DNA of 64,000 bases from Pelagihabitans pacificus. Its GTDB lineage: Bacteria; Bacteroidota; Bacteroidia; Flavobacteriales; Flavobacteriaceae. This document shows, in pieces, positions 16,000 to 53,831 of this stretch. The notes beneath the pieces are model-generated. The model did no database searches. It had not been told where the DNA came from and worked only from the letters and a program-made list of their open reading frames with translations. Location: the NCBI RefSeq assembly GCF_009371985.2, contig NZ_VIKU02000005.1, positions 186,001 through 250,000 of the forward strand, given 5' to 3'. How positions within the stretch are numbered: position 1 is the first letter of the stretch; every line of letters begins with the position of its first letter. A program made the position numbers and the translations under genes.

Positions 16000-17082
16000 C
16001 TATGCATTAATAATCTTCTCCTGGTGATTAATCGACTCTTGGTGGATTGCCTTGAACATCTTCAAAACAAATTCTTCGCTCAATCCTTTGGTCTCACCCT
16101 CTAAAATCATCGCCCCTAAAATTTGGTTCCATCGGTTTGACTGAAGTACCGCAACGTTCTTTTGCTTTTTCAACTGTCCTATCCCATCGGAGACCTTCAT
16201 TCGTTTTCCCAATGTCTCGATCAACTGGTGGTCCAAAATATCAATTTGCGCCCTTAAGTTGCTAAGTTTGCGGGTATACTCGGCCTCGCTATCGGTTTCT
16301 TTCCTTATTTTTAAATCCTTCATAATCTGTACTAGGCGGGCCGGGGTCACCTGTTGTGCCGCATCGCTCCACGCATTGTCGGGATCGTGATGCGTTTCGA
16401 TCATCAAACCATCAAAATTCAAATCCAAAGCGGTTTGGGAAACATCAAAAATCATATCACGTTTTCCGGTAATGTGGGAAGGGTCATTAATTATCGGTAA
16501 GTCGGGAAACCTGGTCTGCAGATCGATAGCTAACTGCCACTCCGGGATATTCCGATACTTCGTTCTTTCATAACTTGAAAACCCTCGGTGTATTACCCCT
16601 AATTTTTTGATATTCGCCGTATGTAGTCGCTCTACGGCCCCTAGCCAGAGCGAAAGGTCGGGGTTTACAGGATTCTTGATCAACACCACTTTGTCGGTAC
16701 CTTCCAGAGCATCGGCGATTTCCTGAACGATAAACGGACTCACGGTTGACCTAGCGCCTATCCACAACAAGTCGACATCGTGTTCCAAGGCCAATTCAAC
16801 GTGGGCACGGTTGGCCACTTCAGTAGCCGTTTTTAAACCGGTTTCCGCCTTTACCTTTTGAAGCCATTTTAGTCCAAGCGCCCCTACGCCTTCAAAATTG
16901 CCGGGTCTCGTACGCGGTTTCCAAATACCTGCCCGGTAATAGTTGACATCGGTATCTTTCAATTCATTGGCGATACGCAATACTTGCGCTTCGGTTTCGG
17001 CACTACAGGGCCCGGCAATTACAAGGGGATGACCGAGATTCATGTCATCTAACCAGGACCTCATTTCTTTTGTATTTTCCAT
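16000..17082 (-). CDS. DAHP synthase / chorismate mutase type II fusion
   Basis: This 360-aa bifunctional enzyme has an N-terminal domain (~1-262) that condenses PEP and erythrose-4-phosphate. It carries GPCSAETEAQ, YYRAGIWKPRTRPGNFEG, LLWIGARSTVSPF and NDPSHITGKR. The C-terminal domain (~270-350) is an AroQ-type chorismate mutase (LSNLRAQIDILDHQLIETLGKRM...IGQLKK). The fusion is typical of Bacteroidota and lets the mutase domain act as the feedback sensor. It is the last gene of the aromatic operon, so it should fall under the leader attenuator at 20.1 kb. Confidence 0.92.
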   Translation of the reverse strand: MENTKEMRSWLDDMNLGHPLVIAGPCSAETEAQVLRIANELKDTDVNYYRAGIWKPRTRPGNFEGVGALGLKWLQKVKAETGLKTATEVANRAHVELALEHDVDLLWIGARSTVSPFIVQEIADALEGTDKVVLIKNPVNPDLSLWLGAVERLHTANIKKLGVIHRGFSSYERTKYRNIPEWQLAIDLQTRFPDLPIINDPSHITGKRDMIFDVSQTALDLNFDGLMIETHHDPDNAWSDAAQQVTPARLVQIMKDLKIRKETDSEAEYTRKLSNLRAQIDILDHQLIETLGKRMKVSDGIGQLKKQKNVAVLQSNRWNQILGAMILEGETKGLSEEFVLKMFKAIHQESINHQEKIINA

Positions 17083-17200: not shown

Positions 17201-18061
17201 TTATTTCTTGGTCAACGGTATTCCGTCTAAAATTTCCTTTATCTTGTTCGTATCGTTCATTTCCTTGTAGATACCCTCATAATCTTGCCTGAGCAGCAAT
17301 TCCTTAAAGGCTTCCAAGTTGGCAATATACTCTTCCAAGGTCTCTATCACGTTTTCCTTGTTCTGCTCAAAAATCGGCGTCCACATTGCCGGGGAACTTT
17401 TGGCAAGACGCACCGTGCTTTCAAAACCACTACCTGCCATGTCAAAAATATCGCGTTCGTTTTTTTCTTTCTCGATAACGGTCTTTCCCAACATAAAAGA
17501 GCTGATATGTGATAAATGCGACACGTAGGCGATATGTTTATCGTGCGCCTCGGGATTCATATAGCGAATGCGCATCCCCATTTCCCTGAACAGTTCCAAG
17601 GCCCTTTCCTGCAACTTAAAAGCCGTTTTTTCCACTTCGCAGATGATATTGGTCTTGCCTTCATATAAATGTTCAATTGCCGCCGAGGGGCCTGAAAATT
17701 CGGTTCCTGCAATGGGGTGACATGCGAGGAAATTACGTCTTTTGTGATGGTCTTCCAGTGCCTTACAAATTAGGTTTTTGGTTGAACCTCCATCGAACAC
17801 TACGCAATCGTCGTTCACCAGCTCCAAGATTTTGGGAAGCTCCGTTACCGAAGCATCCACTGGAATACTTACCAAAACCATATCGGCCTTTTCCAGTTCT
17901 TCATAGGCTGACATGAAGTCGATCAGTTTCAAATCCAACGCCTGCTGCAAGTGATCTTTATCGGTATCGATACCGTAAATTTTACTTTCGGGGTGTAGGC
18001 GTTTGATATCCTTTGCAAAAGACCCCCCGATCAAACCGATACCGATGATGAATACGTTCAT
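17201..18061 (-). CDS. tyrA: Prephenate dehydrogenase
   Basis: This 286-aa NAD(P)-dependent enzyme oxidatively decarboxylates prephenate toward tyrosine. The Rossmann motif GIGLIGGSFAKDI is at ~7-19, and VSIPVDASV and FDGGSTKNLI follow. The HPIAGTEFSGP block at ~115-125 carries the catalytic His, and SHLSHISSFML sits at ~180. There is no C-terminal ACT domain, so allosteric Tyr control is not evident. It lies between the aminotransferase and the DAHP synthase genes on the same strand. Confidence 0.92.
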   Translation of the reverse strand: MNVFIIGIGLIGGSFAKDIKRLHPESKIYGIDTDKDHLQQALDLKLIDFMSAYEELEKADMVLVSIPVDASVTELPKILELVNDDCVVFDGGSTKNLICKALEDHHKRRNFLACHPIAGTEFSGPSAAIEHLYEGKTNIICEVEKTAFKLQERALELFREMGMRIRYMNPEAHDKHIAYVSHLSHISSFMLGKTVIEKEKNERDIFDMAGSGFESTVRLAKSSPAMWTPIFEQNKENVIETLEEYIANLEAFKELLLRQDYEGIYKEMNDTNKIKEILDGIPLTKK

Positions 18062-18123: not shown

Positions 18124-19269
18124 CTAAAACCTTTCAATGGCTTCCGTTATTTTTTCCTCCTTTACACAAAGCGAGAAGCGAATATATCCTTCCCCATTGC
18201 TACCAAAAATTGTTCCCGGTGCTATAAAGATATTTTTTTCGTAGAGGACGTCATCTATAAATGCCTCGGCCGATTTGCTGCCTTTGGGCAACCTCGCCCA
18301 CACAAACATCCCTACCGCATTCCTATCGTAACTACAACCGAGTTTATCGACCAATCGGAACATTAAATTTCTCCTATTCCCGTAGATAACGTCCAATTTC
18401 TCGAACCATTCCTTTCCACTTCGCAACGCTTCGATAGCCCCTTTTTGAATGCCGTAGAACATTCCTGAATCCATATTGCTTTTCACTTTTAAAATAGCAT
18501 CGATGTGGTCGGCGCTTCCCAATACCATTCCGACACGCCACCCGGCCATATTGAATGTCTTACTGAGTGAATTCAGTTCCAAAGCAACTTCCTTGGCTCC
18601 CTCCATCGCCAACAGACTATTCGGATTTTTACTCAAAACAAAGCTATACGGATTGTCATTGACCAACAGCATATTATTTTCTTTGGCAAAGTCGACCAGC
18701 TCTTGTAATTGATTGGAATTGGCCGTAGCACCGGTTGGCATATGTGGATAACTTACCCACATCAATTTCACCTTGGACAAATCTTGGGAACGCAGATCTG
18801 CTAAGTCGGGGAACCATCCATTTTCTTCCGACAAATGATATAATTTAGGAGTGCCACCGACCAATTTAGTGACCGCCATATAGGTGGGATAGCCCGGATT
18901 GGGTATCAACACCTCATCGCCCTCGTTTAAAAAAGCCATGCTGATGTGCATGATACCCTCTTTGGAACCCATTAGGGGCAAGACTTCCGAACCTGGATCT
19001 ACCACTACCCCGAACTTGGACTCGTAAAAATCGGCAATCGCCTGTCGCAACTCCGGTAAGCCCTGATAACTCTGATATTGATGCGCCCCCACCTCAACAA
19101 TCGATTCCTTAAAGGAAGCGATGACCGCATCGGAAGGCGCCAGATCGGGACTTCCAATGCCCATGTTGATGATCGGTCGACCTTTGGCAATGAGTCCACG
19201 TACCTCCCTCAGTTTTTTGGAGAAGTAATATTCCTCGACGGTATGTAAACGATCCGCGGTGCGTATCAT
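18124..19269 (-). CDS. PLP-dependent aromatic/aspartate-type aminotransferase
   Basis: This is a 381-aa fold-type I class I/II aminotransferase. The PLP lysine motif SLSKTFNMAGWRVGM is at ~232-246, and NPGYPTYMA, YPHMPTG and a terminal RFSLCV (substrate-carboxylate Arg) are present. Within this operon it most likely transaminates phenylpyruvate and 4-hydroxyphenylpyruvate. LL-diaminopimelate-type activity is the main alternative. Its ATG overlaps the pheA stop codon (ATGA at 19269-19266), so translation is coupled. Confidence 0.85.
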   Translation of the reverse strand: MIRTADRLHTVEEYYFSKKLREVRGLIAKGRPIINMGIGSPDLAPSDAVIASFKESIVEVGAHQYQSYQGLPELRQAIADFYESKFGVVVDPGSEVLPLMGSKEGIMHISMAFLNEGDEVLIPNPGYPTYMAVTKLVGGTPKLYHLSEENGWFPDLADLRSQDLSKVKLMWVSYPHMPTGATANSNQLQELVDFAKENNMLLVNDNPYSFVLSKNPNSLLAMEGAKEVALELNSLSKTFNMAGWRVGMVLGSADHIDAILKVKSNMDSGMFYGIQKGAIEALRSGKEWFEKLDVIYGNRRNLMFRLVDKLGCSYDRNAVGMFVWARLPKGSKSAEAFIDDVLYEKNIFIAPGTIFGSNGEGYIRFSLCVKEEKITEAIERF

Positions 19270-20093
19270 ATTCGTGCGTTTTTATATTCACCCAACACCC
19301 TAAAGTCTTCCGACATGATGTTCAAAAGTGATTTCGCCTTATCGAAATGGTCGTATTCCTCAAAAGTAACATCCACGAAAAAGGCATACTTCCATGGCGT
19401 TTTAATTATCGGAAGGGATTGTATTTTGGTCAAATTCAGATTGCAATCGCTCATAACGTTCAGTACAGTTGCCAAACTACCCCGTTTATGGTCGGTAATA
19501 AATCGGATGGAAGCCTTATTGATTTCAGCTTTTGGCAGTTCCTTATTTTTTGTCTTTACAATGATAAAACGGGTAGCATTATTTTTAATGGTCTGTATCT
19601 CCGCAGCTACGATGTCCAAATCATACAAATCTGCCGCTACTTTGGGGGCGATTGCTGCGATTCCCTTTAATTTTTGTTCTTGAATCCGTTTTGCAGTCTC
19701 CGCGGTATCGACATCTTCCACCAGTTTGATGTTCGGATGGTCTTTAAAAAACTCCTTACACTGCAACAATGCCATCGGATGGGAGCGTACCTCTTCGATA
19801 TCATCCATGGTCTGCCCCCTTAACACCATAAGATTATGATGAATGTTCAGGTAGTGTTCCCCGATAATATGAAGATTGTTCCGGTAAACCAATGCATAAT
19901 TGGGAATAATGGATCCGGCAATTGAATTTTCAATGGCCATAACCCCCTTGTCAGACGAGCCATCGAGGAGGCGTTCTACCAACGAATCGAACGACATACA
20001 TTCAACCAGATCGACCTCGTTGCCATAATATTCCCTGACCACTTGGTGATGGTTCGAACCCTTTATTCCTTGAATCGCTATTTTTAGACGCAT
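19266..20093 (-). CDS. pheA: Prephenate dehydratase
   Basis: This 275-aa enzyme converts prephenate to phenylpyruvate. It carries GIKGSNHHQV near the start, IENSIAGSIIPNYAL (~54-68), and the catalytic NNATRFIIV (TRF at 174-176). The ACT domain is at ~193-270. The ACT positions that bind Phe in the well-studied family (GALV and ESRP) read GSLA (205-208) and QSLP (225-228), so Phe feedback at the protein level may be weak. It is the first enzyme gene of the operon, 24 nt after an attenuator-type terminator. Confidence 0.92.
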   Translation of the reverse strand: MRLKIAIQGIKGSNHHQVVREYYGNEVDLVECMSFDSLVERLLDGSSDKGVMAIENSIAGSIIPNYALVYRNNLHIIGEHYLNIHHNLMVLRGQTMDDIEEVRSHPMALLQCKEFFKDHPNIKLVEDVDTAETAKRIQEQKLKGIAAIAPKVAADLYDLDIVAAEIQTIKNNATRFIIVKTKNKELPKAEINKASIRFITDHKRGSLATVLNVMSDCNLNLTKIQSLPIIKTPWKYAFFVDVTFEEYDHFDKAKSLLNIMSEDFRVLGEYKNARI

Positions 20094-20116: not shown

Positions 20117-20144
20117 AAAAAAGTCCCGCTTATCGCGGGACTTT
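20117..20144 (-). terminator. Attenuator terminator upstream of pheA
   Basis: Read on the minus strand, AAAGTCCCGC (20144-20135), loop GATAA, GCGGGACTTT (20129-20120), then a run of Ts to 20117. This is a textbook intrinsic terminator located in the leader, 24 nt before the pheA ATG rather than after a gene. Its 5' arm can alternatively pair with GCGGGACT at 20182-20175, inside the end of the leader peptide frame. Both pairings use the same AGTCCCGC segment, as expected for terminator/antiterminator switching. Confidence 0.88.
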
Positions 20145-20167
20145 ATATCATATCACTTTTCAATATC

Positions 20168-20236
20168 CTATAACAGTCCCGCTTCTCTTTTAAAGAAGTA
20201 AAAAAAGAAACCGTTATAGAAATACTGTCTTGTCAT
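20168..20236 (-). CDS. Phe/Tyr leader peptide of the aromatic operon
   Basis: This is a 22-codon frame from ATG (20236-20234) to TAG (20170-20168), just upstream of the pheA attenuator. Residues 5-15 contain nine aromatic residues: Tyr 5, 7 and 13, and Phe 6, 10, 11, 12, 14 and 15 (core FFFYFF). The frame ends in KREAGLL, whose codons include the GCGGGACT antiterminator arm. Ribosome stalling at the Phe/Tyr codons when charged tRNA is scarce would free that arm to pair with the terminator's 5' arm. The peptide itself probably has no function beyond regulation. Confidence 0.85.
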   Translation of the reverse strand: MTRQYFYNGFFFYFFKREAGLL

Positions 20237-20375
20237 TGTACACTTAAACTTTGGCTAAAGTAACAATTAAATTTAGAAATCATATTCCCGAGTACTATTT
20301 TTTTGATTTTTTTAGATTAAGGGGATTCCCATTGCGAATCAATAAAACATACTGTTCGTTTATTGAGAATACGCG

Positions 20376-20409
20376 TTGGTCCCAAATCGGTGGTTATTGT
20401 TTATTTTTG
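20376..20409 (+). promoter_or_regulatory. Flavobacterial promoter for gldA
   Basis: TTG (20376-20378) is followed after 23 nt by TATTTTTG (20402-20409), a perfect TAnnTTTG -7 box. The spacer is at the long end of the usual range. The predicted start is about 20416, leaving a leader of roughly 11 nt before the ATG at 20427. Confidence 0.5.
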
Positions 20410-20426
20410 AATTTAAAATAAAGGCA

Positions 20427-21320
20427 ATGTCTATCACCGTCAAAAATATTACCAAGACTTTTGGTACCCAAAAAGCACTCGACCATGTATCGTTTGAATT
20501 GGCAAAGGGGGAAATTGTTGGGTTTCTTGGTCCGAACGGCGCGGGTAAGTCGACCATGATGAAGGTGTTGACCACCTATCATGTAGCAGATGAGGGCGAG
20601 GCCACGGTTAACTCGTTCGATGTCTTGAAAGACAAAAAAAAGGTACAAGAAAGTGTCGGTTATCTACCGGAGCACAATCCCTTGTATCTAGACATGTATG
20701 TAAAGGAGTACCTTGTTTTTAACGCCAACGTATATAAGGTGGATAAAGATCGAATTGCCGAAGTCATCGAAAAAACAGGGCTTGCACCGGAAGCCCATAA
20801 AAAAATAGGGCAACTCTCCAAAGGATATCGCCAACGGGTGGGGCTGGCGGCTGCAATGCTCCATGATCCCGACGTTTTGATATTGGACGAACCAACTACC
20901 GGTCTCGATCCGAACCAGTTGCTGGAAATAAGAAAACTCATTCGGGAAGTCGGAAAAGAAAAAACCATTTTGCTTTCAACACATATCATGAAAGAGGTAG
21001 AAGCTGTATGTGATCGAGTATTGATTATCAACAAAGGGGTGTTAGTGGCCGATAAAAAATTATCGGAATTACGTGAAGATGAGGATCAAATCATCGAAGT
21101 GGAATTTGATTACCGCGTAGAAGAGGCATTTTTAAACAGACTTCCCCATGTAACCCATGTAAAGAATGTGAGCGGCTTTGTCTATCACATCACCTTCAGT
21201 ACATCGAATGATATGCGCCCAGCGGTATTCGATTTTGCGCACGACAACCAGCTCAAAACACTTCAGTTAAGTAGAAAAAGTAAAAATCTGGAGAGTTTGT
21301 TCAGCGAATTGACTTCTTGA
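20427..21320 (+). CDS. gldA: Gliding motility-type ABC transporter ATP-binding protein
   Basis: This 297-aa ABC ATPase starts at ATG 20427, and the preceding open frame covers the promoter. It has Walker A GPNGAGKS (~37-44), a Q-loop at GYLPEHNPLYLDMYV, an LSKGYRQRVGLAAAMLHDPDVLILDEPT signature/Walker B region at ~133-160, and the H-loop LLSTHIM. The overall sequence matches GldA, the ATP-binding subunit that works with GldF and GldG in Flavobacterium gliding and type IX secretion. gldF and gldG are not in this window, so the assignment rests on sequence resemblance alone. Confidence 0.75.
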   Translation: MSITVKNITKTFGTQKALDHVSFELAKGEIVGFLGPNGAGKSTMMKVLTTYHVADEGEATVNSFDVLKDKKKVQESVGYLPEHNPLYLDMYVKEYLVFNANVYKVDKDRIAEVIEKTGLAPEAHKKIGQLSKGYRQRVGLAAAMLHDPDVLILDEPTTGLDPNQLLEIRKLIREVGKEKTILLSTHIMKEVEAVCDRVLIINKGVLVADKKLSELREDEDQIIEVEFDYRVEEAFLNRLPHVTHVKNVSGFVYHITFSTSNDMRPAVFDFAHDNQLKTLQLSRKSKNLESLFSELTS

Positions 21321-21334
21321 CCCCTAACGACCAA

Positions 21335-22876
21335 TCATAGTTCCTCCGTCAAAATCGCTATCATCGTCTTTATTCCTTCCCGATAGTTTCCCAGTCTTAG
21401 GTTTTCATTCGGACTGTGCTGATTGTTATCCCGATTGACCGTCGGAACCGTTACGGCAGGAATGTTCAAGGTGGTCACAAAAGGGGATATCGGAATCGAG
21501 CCGCCACTCATTCGAATCATGATGGGTTCTTCTCCGAAAGCCTTTTTCAACGCTTTCCGAAGCCATTTCCCAACCTCGGAATCAAAATCGGTACGAAAAG
21601 ACTGGTACGATATCTCCGAGGTGAAGGTAGCTATCTTCTCGTTGGACAACCGCTCATCCTTGGTCGGCACTCTATCGATTACCTTATATCCTTGATTTTC
21701 AATATGTTCTTTTATAAGCAGCAGTAGCCGTTCCGGGTCTGTTTCCAAAACAAGGCGCACATCGATTTCAGCCCTTGCCCAAGCAGGTATGATGGTTCGT
21801 ACTTTTTCATCGATCCAACCAGACTGCATCCCACGAATATTGAGTGAGGGGTATTGAATGGCTTCTTGGTAGTAGCTTCCCACTTTGTCGGTAGAAGCGA
21901 TTTGAAGTCGTTCCTTTATCCGCTCTTCATTGTCGGGTACCTTTCTCAAGACGCGTTCGGTCTCGGCGTCGATGGAGACTCCATCATAGAAACCTGGAAT
22001 CGTCACGCGTCCCACATCGTCTTTCATGGAAGCCAACAACTTTGATAAGCGGAGGGCAGGATTTGGGGCATAGTTTCCAAAATGACCACTGTGCTGGGGA
22101 ACCACGGGGCCGTAGGTGGTAAGGGTAATCGTTGCGATACCACGGGCACCGAATGTGAGCGTTGGTTTGTTGGTAATATGCCTGGGACCATCAAAGATGA
22201 TGAGCATATCGGCTTTCAGGGCTTCTTCATTTTCTATGACCGCCTTGGGCAGATGGGGGGACCCCAACTCTTCCTCAAAGTCCATAATTACCTTAATGTT
22301 GTAGTTGGGAACACTATTTTGGGAAGCAGTGGCGTCCAACGCCGCCAAAAACATGGCCACCGGTCCTTTGGCATCGCTGGCAGATCGAGCAAAAACCCTG
22401 TAATCATCCTCAAAGGATGTGGTATCGTCCCACACTATTTGTTCCCATTCCCCTGTTCCATCGGGCTTTTTGAGTACGGGCTCATAGGCACTTTTTTGAA
22501 ACCATCGGGTGCTATCGACCGGCTGTCCATCCAATTGCAAATAGATAAGGACCGTTTTTTTGGCCTTGGGATGCGATCGCTGTGCCAGCAATAAGGGAAC
22601 CGTTGGTGTTCGCAAACGTCGGGTATCAAAGCCACGGTTCTCAAATGCTTTTTCGCACCAAACAATGTTCCGCTCGATATCGTCAGGATAGAAGGCGTCA
22701 TTGGGGATGCTGAGCAATTCCCTTAGTAATGGGAGGGACTCTGTTGCATATTTGGCGGATAAACGGTCTATTTCGGTTGTCTGCTGTGCCCTACTGGAAG
22801 TAGCAAGCAACAAACAGAAGATGAAAACGCATTGAAATTGGGTGATAGTTTTGAAACAAGTACCGTTATAAATCAT
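21335..22876 (-). CDS. M20-family dipeptidase-like protein lacking the first zinc His
   Basis: This 513-aa secreted protein has a signal peptide (~10-30). It has the M20/M25/M40 layout with a catalytic domain split by a dimerisation domain (~220-390). D168 (SASDAKG), the Glu pair E201-E203 (DFEEELGSP) and the C-terminal RDNNQHSPNE His are present. The motif that normally reads GHxDxQP is YLQLDGQPVD, with Gln114 where the first zinc ligand should be and Asp116 retained. Family members hydrolyse peptides or N-acyl amino acids. Whether this one binds two metals is doubtful. Confidence 0.8.
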   Translation of the reverse strand: MIYNGTCFKTITQFQCVFIFCLLLATSSRAQQTTEIDRLSAKYATESLPLLRELLSIPNDAFYPDDIERNIVWCEKAFENRGFDTRRLRTPTVPLLLAQRSHPKAKKTVLIYLQLDGQPVDSTRWFQKSAYEPVLKKPDGTGEWEQIVWDDTTSFEDDYRVFARSASDAKGPVAMFLAALDATASQNSVPNYNIKVIMDFEEELGSPHLPKAVIENEEALKADMLIIFDGPRHITNKPTLTFGARGIATITLTTYGPVVPQHSGHFGNYAPNPALRLSKLLASMKDDVGRVTIPGFYDGVSIDAETERVLRKVPDNEERIKERLQIASTDKVGSYYQEAIQYPSLNIRGMQSGWIDEKVRTIIPAWARAEIDVRLVLETDPERLLLLIKEHIENQGYKVIDRVPTKDERLSNEKIATFTSEISYQSFRTDFDSEVGKWLRKALKKAFGEEPIMIRMSGGSIPISPFVTTLNIPAVTVPTVNRDNNQHSPNENLRLGNYREGIKTMIAILTEEL

Positions 22877-36789: not shown

Positions 36790-36891
36790 TGATCTCGTTT
36801 ATACTATTGCGCTCAAAAAAACCTTTGTAAATCGAACAATCGTTACGTAGTAATGCTATCAAGTAAGGGAAGAGAAGGAAATACTCCTTGA

Positions 36892-37006
36892 GTTATCTGC
36901 CTGGATACCGGGCTGAACCCGATAGCAGGTAGAATGTAGCACCTTCTTTAAAGTAAAGGGTTGCTAAGGCTTCGTAGGGTCTAATCCCTCCACCTTTCTT
37001 GATAAC
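36892..37006 (-). promoter_or_regulatory. SAM-I (S-box) riboswitch upstream of metH
   Basis: Read on the minus strand from 37006. P1 is closed by GTTATC (37006-37001) and GATAAC (36897-36892). The conserved SAM-I core follows in order: AAGAAAGGTGGAGGGA, ACCCTACGAAGCC, TTAGCAACCC, then AAGGTGCTACATTCTACC. Between the aptamer and the metH start (36789) there is a short AAGGAG...CTCCTT-like pairing and a T-run (GGTTTTTTTG), but no classical terminator, so the output mode is unclear. The remainder of the 392-nt gap holds a possible promoter (37036-37066) and nothing coding. Confidence 0.92.
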
Positions 37007-37035
37007 TTATTACAAATTTTCTAATGAACTGGGTG

Positions 37036-52057: not shown

Positions 52058-52177
52058 GATTTTGTTTTTTAATCGTTAAACATCAAATTAAAAAAGCCAA
52101 ACCTTCCCCACCGTCGTTGCGGACAAGTAAAATCAAAGAGTTATAAGAAAGCTTAAATTACAGAAGTAACTTGTTGC

Positions 52178-52299
52178 GTTATCTGTCACGCCTCAGGCGT
52201 GATAGAATTTAGCACCTTCTCCGTATCTGACAAGCCGTCTGGATAACAAAGGGTTGCTAAGGCTTCAAAGGGTCTATTCCCTCCACCTTTCTTGATAAC
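52178..52299 (-). promoter_or_regulatory. SAM-I (S-box) riboswitch upstream of metY
   Basis: Minus strand from 52299: GTTATC (52299-52294) pairs with GATAAC (52183-52178) to close P1. AAGAAAGGTGGAGGGA, CCCTTTGAAGCC, TTAGCAACCC and AAGGTGCTAAATTCTA follow in the SAM-I order. The P4 arm is TCACGCC-TGA-GGCGTGA. It lies between metK and metY. The expression platform (52058-52177) ends in a T-run (GGCTTTTTT) without a clearly defined preceding stem. The 319-nt gap contains no gene. Confidence 0.93.
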
Positions 52300-52329
52300 T
52301 ATTCAATACGTGTTTGAACTTTGGAAATA

Positions 52330-53633: not shown

Positions 53634-53706
53634 AGTCTATAATTTTTTTTGAAGGGATTTGACGATGTCGCTAAAAGAAGAATGATATGGATATGGTATC
53701 TATATC

Positions 53707-53820
53707 AACTGCTTTAGCATTTTTTAATGTCGATTTTAATTCGACAGCTGTCTTTTATGAGACAGGTTCTGAAACTTATTCAGAACTTAGAGGTTGCAAT
53801 CAGTCAAATCCTTCCTCCTT
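53707..53820 (-). promoter_or_regulatory. SAM-II-like pseudoknot with long insert upstream of metK
   Basis: On the minus strand, P1 is GGAGG (53818-53814) with CCTCT (53793-53789). The loop core GATTTGACTGATTGCA (53810-53795) closely matches the SAM-II core (known form TGATTTAACCGTATTGCA). A 3' element GCTAAA (53718-53713) is followed by CAGTT (53711-53707), which pairs with GACTG (53805-53801) as the SAM-II pseudoknot does. Between them lie three hairpins: GTTCTGAA/TTCAGAAC (53786-53766), CTGTC/GACAG, and TGTCGA/TCGACA. The element ends 73 nt before the metK ATG. The assignment is by eye. Confidence 0.6.
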
Positions 53821-53831
53821 TGTTATCCGGG

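Follow-up and report, generated by a model that had tools for sequence, protein, structure and literature searches.

The window, by which we mean the whole 64,000-nucleotide stretch of Pelagihabitans pacificus DNA analysed in this work, carries in front of an operon for aromatic amino acid synthesis an element which, judged by its sequence, is very probably an attenuator of transcription mediated by the ribosome, like those of E. coli trp and pheA. The four segments known from that classical design are all present, and they can pair either as 1:2 and 3:4 together or as 2:3. The frame, the arms, their conservation and covariation and the geometry that relates them can be read directly in the DNA of the window and its relatives. 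The element is a conserved candidate regulator of aromatic amino acid synthesis in a large bacterial group, and the window leader is recognised by none of the curated Pfam, NCBIfam and Rfam models at their cut-offs. The mechanism itself is ordinary; what is notable is the mixture of aromatic codons, the spread of the element and its implication for the coupling of transcription and translation.

Results

The preliminary description of this DNA had proposed a 22-codon frame on the minus strand with nine Phe/Tyr codons among residues 5-15, and this is what we found: the frame at 20236-20168 encodes MTRQYFYNGFFFYFFKREAGLL followed by a stop, so a short frame rich in codons for the end products lies 5' of the operon (Table 1). 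The selection on its codons, described below, argues that it is translated. Judged by these codons, the leader would sense charged tRNA-Phe and tRNA-Tyr jointly. Three leader peptides compared with the Pfam and NCBIfam HMMs gave no match at E up to 1, HMMER being weak on such short peptides. Between the frame and pheA, 23 nt before the gene, stands the perfect terminator that had also been described, with a 10-bp stem, a 5-nt loop and a U-run, and by its sequence it is of the intrinsic type. Next to the leader on its upstream side an ABC transporter gene is read divergently (frame 20376-21320, plus strand). The closest minus-strand gene upstream stops at 21335, about 1.2 kb short of the terminator, which leaves the terminator without another obvious client.

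Table 1. Features of the leader and the operon in the window
Feature	Position	Strand	Remarks
Promoter -7-like box TACTTTAG	20255..20262	minus	26 nt 5' of leader ATG; candidate by sequence
Leader peptide frame, 22 codons + TAG	20236..20168	minus	Control codons (Phe/Tyr) 5-7 and 10-15
Segment 1, protector arm inside leader frame	20207..20227	minus	Partner: segment 2; minimum-energy fold, swap test, pair counts
Segment 2, spanning end of frame, stop codon and spacer	20161..20182	minus	Partner: segment 1 or 3
Segment 3	20135..20153	minus	Partner: segment 2 in the antiterminator, segment 4 in the terminator
Intrinsic terminator hairpin, segments 3:4	20120..20144	minus	U-run ends at 20117
pheA, prephenate dehydratase (PDT)	19266..20093	minus	Domain match; ACT match weak
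Class I/II aminotransferase	18124..19269	minus	Domain match, gene order
tyrA, prephenate dehydrogenase	17201..18061	minus	Domain match, gene order
DAHP synthase/chorismate mutase (type II) fusion	16000..17082	minus	Domain match, gene order

An alternative pairing between the end of the frame and the 5' arm of the terminator had been pointed out as well, and GCGGGACT (20182-20175) is indeed complementary to AGTCCCGC of that arm. These 8 bp form the core of the antiterminator, and the helix is longer than had been supposed: 2:3 runs on past the stop codon and into the spacer, comprises 18 pairs (-20 kcal/mol, z -6.8) and excludes the terminator. The preliminary description had missed the fourth segment, a protector arm at 20227-20207. 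When the leader is folded to minimum energy (z -6.6), segment 2 pairs with this arm and the terminator is kept, and the resulting 1:2 hairpin and the antiterminator are mutually exclusive; two of the five pair-count measures for 1:2, given below, did not rise above shuffles. The gene names proposed for the operon agree with the domain matches (prephenate dehydratase, aminotransferase I/II, prephenate dehydrogenase, DAHP synthase with chorismate mutase type II), the ACT match of the prephenate dehydratase being weak at 23.8 bits, under Pfam's 27.

We gathered 110 pheA loci, six pairs of which share identical leader stretches. The 80 named relatives among them (L001-L080) belong to Maribacter, Zobellia, Arenibacter, Flagellimonas/Allomuricauda and other Flavobacteriaceae, several being labelled only as uncultured, and in all 69 full-length loci of this group the four genes follow in the order pheA-aminotransferase-tyrA-DAHP synthase/chorismate mutase on one strand. 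Within the 350 nt upstream of pheA, 107 of the 110 loci have an ATG frame, 10-40 codons long, in which a stretch of 12 includes six or more aromatic codons, as against 6/110 on the opposite strand and 84/2200 shuffles; the three loci below this threshold are L102, L105 and L109. The closer set (L001-L093) has the frame at 93 of 93 loci. Six of these leaders are identical to another one and were left out, which gives 87 distinct leaders in the alignment; once trimmed, it has 86 different rows. Phe, Tyr or Trp occupies 851 of the 868 cells that make up the control block (codons 5-7 and 10-16) of these 87 leaders. Single changes within the block were synonymous in 86 cases and of another kind in 33, with 28 of the latter affecting the second base of the codon. 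At codon 7, 50 leaders have Trp, 23 have Tyr and 14 have Phe, so that 50 of the 87 close leaders contain a Trp codon in addition. Insertions and deletions inside the aromatic block are whole codons; in L024 a one-base gap 3' of the block leads to an earlier stop. A separate observation concerns codons 13-15 (alignment columns 49-60), whose third bases are nearly fixed even though they lie outside the main arms (TTC in 87/87, TTT in 84/85, TAC in 73/87). These codons may form a hairpin with the codons that follow, for which covariation gave no support.

Upstream of the frame, the box TACTTTAG resembles the flavobacterial sigma-A box, stated in PMC9723704 to be TAnnTTTG, with A instead of T as its seventh base. 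The form TAnn(n)TTAG is found 18-32 nt 5' of the leader ATG at 70 of the 93 closer loci and in 68 of 4650 shuffles, and the strict TAnnTTTG box occurs at just 3 of the 93 and is absent at the window locus. A covariance model of the leader found one strong match in the window's own genome (129 bits); since the second match reached only 33.7 bits, the element appears to be single-copy there. In a search of 249 genomes of the family the model had matches at E up to 1 in at least 242, a figure which includes weak matches and which we do not take as a count of true members.

The arms of the 87 close leaders fit each other better than they fit foreign arms. When arms were exchanged among the leaders, own arms were on average superior for each helix (1:2, -14.2 against -11.7 kcal/mol; 2:3, -14.7 against -13.3; 3:4, -14.9 against -12.5) and in each case none of 1000 permutations was as good, relatedness being uncorrected in this test and in the shuffles used for pair counts. 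The terminator has 95.1% of its cells paired and double changes at 7 of 10 pairs (2.7 in shuffles), and the antiterminator 79.9% and 13 of 18 pairs (shuffle mean 9.1). The AU-rich outer part of 2:3 has 65% of its cells paired, and 35% of foreign arms pair there better than the own arm. For 1:2, with 85.4% of cells paired, the leaders exceeded shuffles in paired cells, in double-change cells (88 against 46) and in the covariation score; no excess was seen in how many pairs had double changes (8 of 20, 8.1 in shuffles) or in the number of pair types. Shifting the partners by 1-3 columns strongly lowered both the paired cells and the covariation score of all three helices. In some leaders a single change is carried through segments 2, 3 and 4 jointly (L043 and L060; L031 and L091). 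The aromatic codons and shared, covarying arms which the preliminary description proposed to look for in relatives are accordingly there. An inner hairpin considered in the loop of 1:2 showed no clear covariation and is unsupported.

The position of the ribosome was modelled by masking it on an RNA which ends at segment 3, mimicking a polymerase that has not yet reached segment 4. In the window leader the probability of 2:3 in this nascent fold is 0.87-0.99 with the A site at codons 5-15 and 0.00 from codon 16 onward, codon 16 being the first after the control block. Over the 87 leaders the mean is 0.80 at aromatic codons (0.77 and 0.80 in two further settings of footprint and temperature), at the stop codon the probability falls below 0.1 in all 87, and the difference between the two positions exceeds 0.2 in 85. 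Without a ribosome, 2:3 has a mean probability of 0.51 over the 87 leaders and of 0.25 in the window leader; because stalling raises it by more than 0.2 above this state in only 42 of 87, termination without translation is only partial in the model. The equilibrium fold of the full leader behaved otherwise, the terminator dominating at every position of the masked ribosome: the mean probability of 3:4 was 0.81 in the stalled state and 0.90 at the stop codon, and the change exceeded 0.2 in only 11 of 87. In the models, then, the stall position decides the hairpin on the nascent RNA and not at full-leader equilibrium, so the switch would have to be kinetic and not purely thermodynamic.

Could the terminator instead be governed by a protein or by a small-molecule aptamer, the aromatic frame being a by-product of a T-rich stretch? 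Phe codons are cheap in T-rich DNA, as is evident from the shuffles which reach six aromatic codons in 12. However, third-base changes dominate in the leader codons, the block changes its length by whole codons, no Rfam family reaches its cut-off in the leader region, and the aromatic block ends just where stalling ceases to free segment 2. We regard such control as highly unlikely. A constitutive leader terminator which sets a basal level only, standing among the remains of an attenuator, would fit the dominance of the terminator at equilibrium, but the selection on codons and alternative helices in 87 leaders speaks against it and makes it extremely improbable.

Leaders beyond the close relatives were sought in a sample of the class, comprising 158 genomes at least 90% complete, 44 of which have a prephenate dehydratase domain. 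The wider set consists of 55 loci, namely 42 of these 44, the window's own and one partial match being left out, and 13 further relatives. The latter come from 15 relatives until then without a locus, of which 14 were added (one also belongs to the class-level loci) and one with a broken frame was left out. An aromatic ATG frame, by the same measure of six in 12 codons within 350 nt, precedes pheA at 39 of the 55 loci (opposite strand 2/55, shuffles 17/1100): at 10 of 10 loci within the family, 29 of 45 outside it and 24 of 37 outside the order. No such frame was found at the other 16. At 7 of these an open frame 100 or more codons long, on the same strand, ends within 200 nt upstream, and pheA may there lie inside an operon; no such frame is present at the remaining 9.

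The arms of divergent leaders were examined in 47 leaders with a terminator, drawn from the wider loci and L094-L110 (6 of 53 leaders, which lack a terminator usable by the pattern, were left out), and the search was started past the final aromatic codon in the best 12-codon stretch. In 39 of the 47 the stretch 3' of the aromatic block complements the 5' arm of the terminator at z < -2, the other 8 falling short of this value, and swapped arms were as good in none of 2000 permutations. With the start placed past the final aromatic residue anywhere in the peptide, 33 of 47 reached z < -2; in leaders ending in LYV or similar this start skips segment 2. Measured from the last aromatic codon in the block, the pairing begins at a median distance of 10 nt (quartiles 8 and 11.5), which is about the forward reach of a ribosome. 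All 53 divergent leaders have both Phe and Tyr codons and 22 of them have Trp. The peptides, compared by eye and unaligned, share no residue pattern beyond their aromatic content, so in sequence terms the leaders found at 29 of the 45 pheA loci outside the family represent the same design in unrelated sequence. This constant spacing in the face of unrelated sequence is, to our mind, the best evidence for a switch that would be worked by a stalled ribosome.

The same leaders bear on whether the peptide itself could be the signal, a nascent chain which together with free Phe, Tyr or Trp as ligand stalls the ribosome from within the exit tunnel and so sets the hairpins. TnaC is a case of peptide arrest with Trp as the ligand, the window peptide is hydrophobic and aromatic, and close relatives strongly keep the sequence around YF(W/Y/F)NGFYFYFFF. 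The divergent leaders, in contrast, keep the aromatic content and its position and no common residue pattern, which fits codon sensing better, and a stall caused by a plentiful amino acid would presumably have the wrong sign for a biosynthetic operon. Peptide arrest is in our opinion very improbable.

Discussion

How would the attenuator work? RNA polymerase would start just 5' of the leader frame with a ribosome following it. If charged tRNA-Phe or tRNA-Tyr, and in many relatives also tRNA-Trp, were in short supply, the ribosome would halt in codons 5-15 and cover or disrupt segment 1. Segment 2, being free, would then pair with segment 3, and with the terminator blocked the operon from pheA to the DAHP synthase/chorismate mutase gene would be transcribed. 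With charged tRNAs plentiful, the ribosome would proceed to the stop codon and cover segment 2, so that 3:4 would stop transcription at about 20117. After release of the ribosome, or without translation, 1:2 could form, which would also favour termination. The transcription start, the termination, the stalling, the coupling and the identity of the sensed tRNAs are what we infer from the leader.

Leader attenuation in Bacteroidota is already in print in outline, and the mechanism is textbook; here it is predicted in many relatives. The preliminary description was right to call it little described in this phylum, while "undescribed" would have been wrong, given the Bacteroid-trp RNA (RF01692) and a statement on Flavobacterium psychrophilum which places leader attenuation in the phylum (PMC9723704). 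The same source states that the translation start in this group does not rest on Shine-Dalgarno sites. Leader-like short frames are mentioned for Bacteroides thetaiotaomicron, with another gene as the example (PMC7366714). In the open-licence text of PubMed Central, where most matches were judged from listings, we found no paper describing a pheA leader in Bacteroidota. The Bacteroid-trp RNA, which appears in a table of PMC2864571 and has been likened to the trp leader attenuation of E. coli (PMC6414381), belongs to the same phylum as a predicted leader of the trp operon and differs from the window leader in operon and amino acid. It exceeded the cut-off in 8 of 37 genomes searched, was not found in the window's genome at E 0.001 and is absent from the 24 matches listed at E up to 10 for the leader region.

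Among the closest known systems is the Phe_leader (RF01859, pheL-pheA of E. coli and relatives), which likewise precedes pheA and has the same order of parts and the same exclusive hairpins. The model aligns to the window leader over its full length (1-125), with 37.9 bits against a gathering cut-off of 55. We rejected membership of this Rfam family for the window leader: its score was obtained in a search of 141 bases, and in a search of 120 genomes of the window's family none had a match over the cut-off, whereas matches of about 35-42 bits, counted irrespective of context, were common elsewhere in them. Of 14 control genomes one had a match over the cut-off, and E. coli was among the six with matches. 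Unlike that of pheL-pheA, the window operon spans Phe, Tyr and the first shikimate step. Mixed-codon attenuators are familiar from E. coli ilvGMEDA and thrABC, where a single leader responds to several amino acids from the same pathway; their codons are branched-chain or Thr/Ile, whereas those of the window are aromatic. According to the review PMC11802643, pheL answers to charged tRNA-Phe, while the window has mixed Phe and Tyr codons and many relatives have Trp in addition. The AroR leader before aroF of Corynebacterium glutamicum, as summarized in the same review, has Phe-Tyr-Phe, ribosome stalling and a DAHP synthase gene in common with our case; it belongs to another phylum and operon, and its reported response is to limitation of Phe and not of Tyr (PMC11802643).

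Other biosynthetic operons have leaders of a related kind. Upstream of hisG in the window's own genome (L214, contig C16, near 414567, minus strand) is a His-rich leader, MINKKVHHHFYCCAQAR, followed by a terminator, and at least three His codons in 12 together with a terminator were found at all 12 hisG loci (L207-L218) from 13 genomes searched (opposite strand 0/12, shuffles 20/600, both controls scored for His alone). At least nine Ile/Leu/Val codons in 12 with a terminator precede ilvD at 4 of 12 loci (L222 and L227-L229), for example MKRILLIVILSIVVP, as against 0/12 on the opposite strand and 4/600 shuffles; L220 and L221 are weaker and the window's genome shows no clear case. The pheA leader, like that of hisG, suggests that in these genomes further terminators standing just 5' of operons for biosynthesis may be attenuators too. 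We think it reasonably probable that a single ancestral attenuator of the window's class, which we take to be Bacteroidia, reads Phe, Tyr and Trp in one leader on behalf of the whole Phe/Tyr branch and DAHP synthase, within a wider network of leader attenuation (aromatic, His, Ile/Leu/Val and Trp) in bacteria whose translation start is independent of Shine-Dalgarno sites. If this is true, tight transcription-translation coupling would be required, at least at the 5' ends of these operons, and the leaders would be its natural reporters. Because a leader attenuator needs a ribosome close behind RNA polymerase, coupling in this phylum could be tested with reporters.

The window also contains riboswitch aptamers. 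Two SAM riboswitch aptamers (RF00162) exceed the cut-off at 36890-37008 and 52176-52301 on the minus strand, as does a SAM-II aptamer in its long-loop form (RF01726) at 53704-53823 on the same strand. Between the latter and a SAM (S box) aptamer there are 1.4 kb, so that two aptamer classes for one ligand lie near each other.
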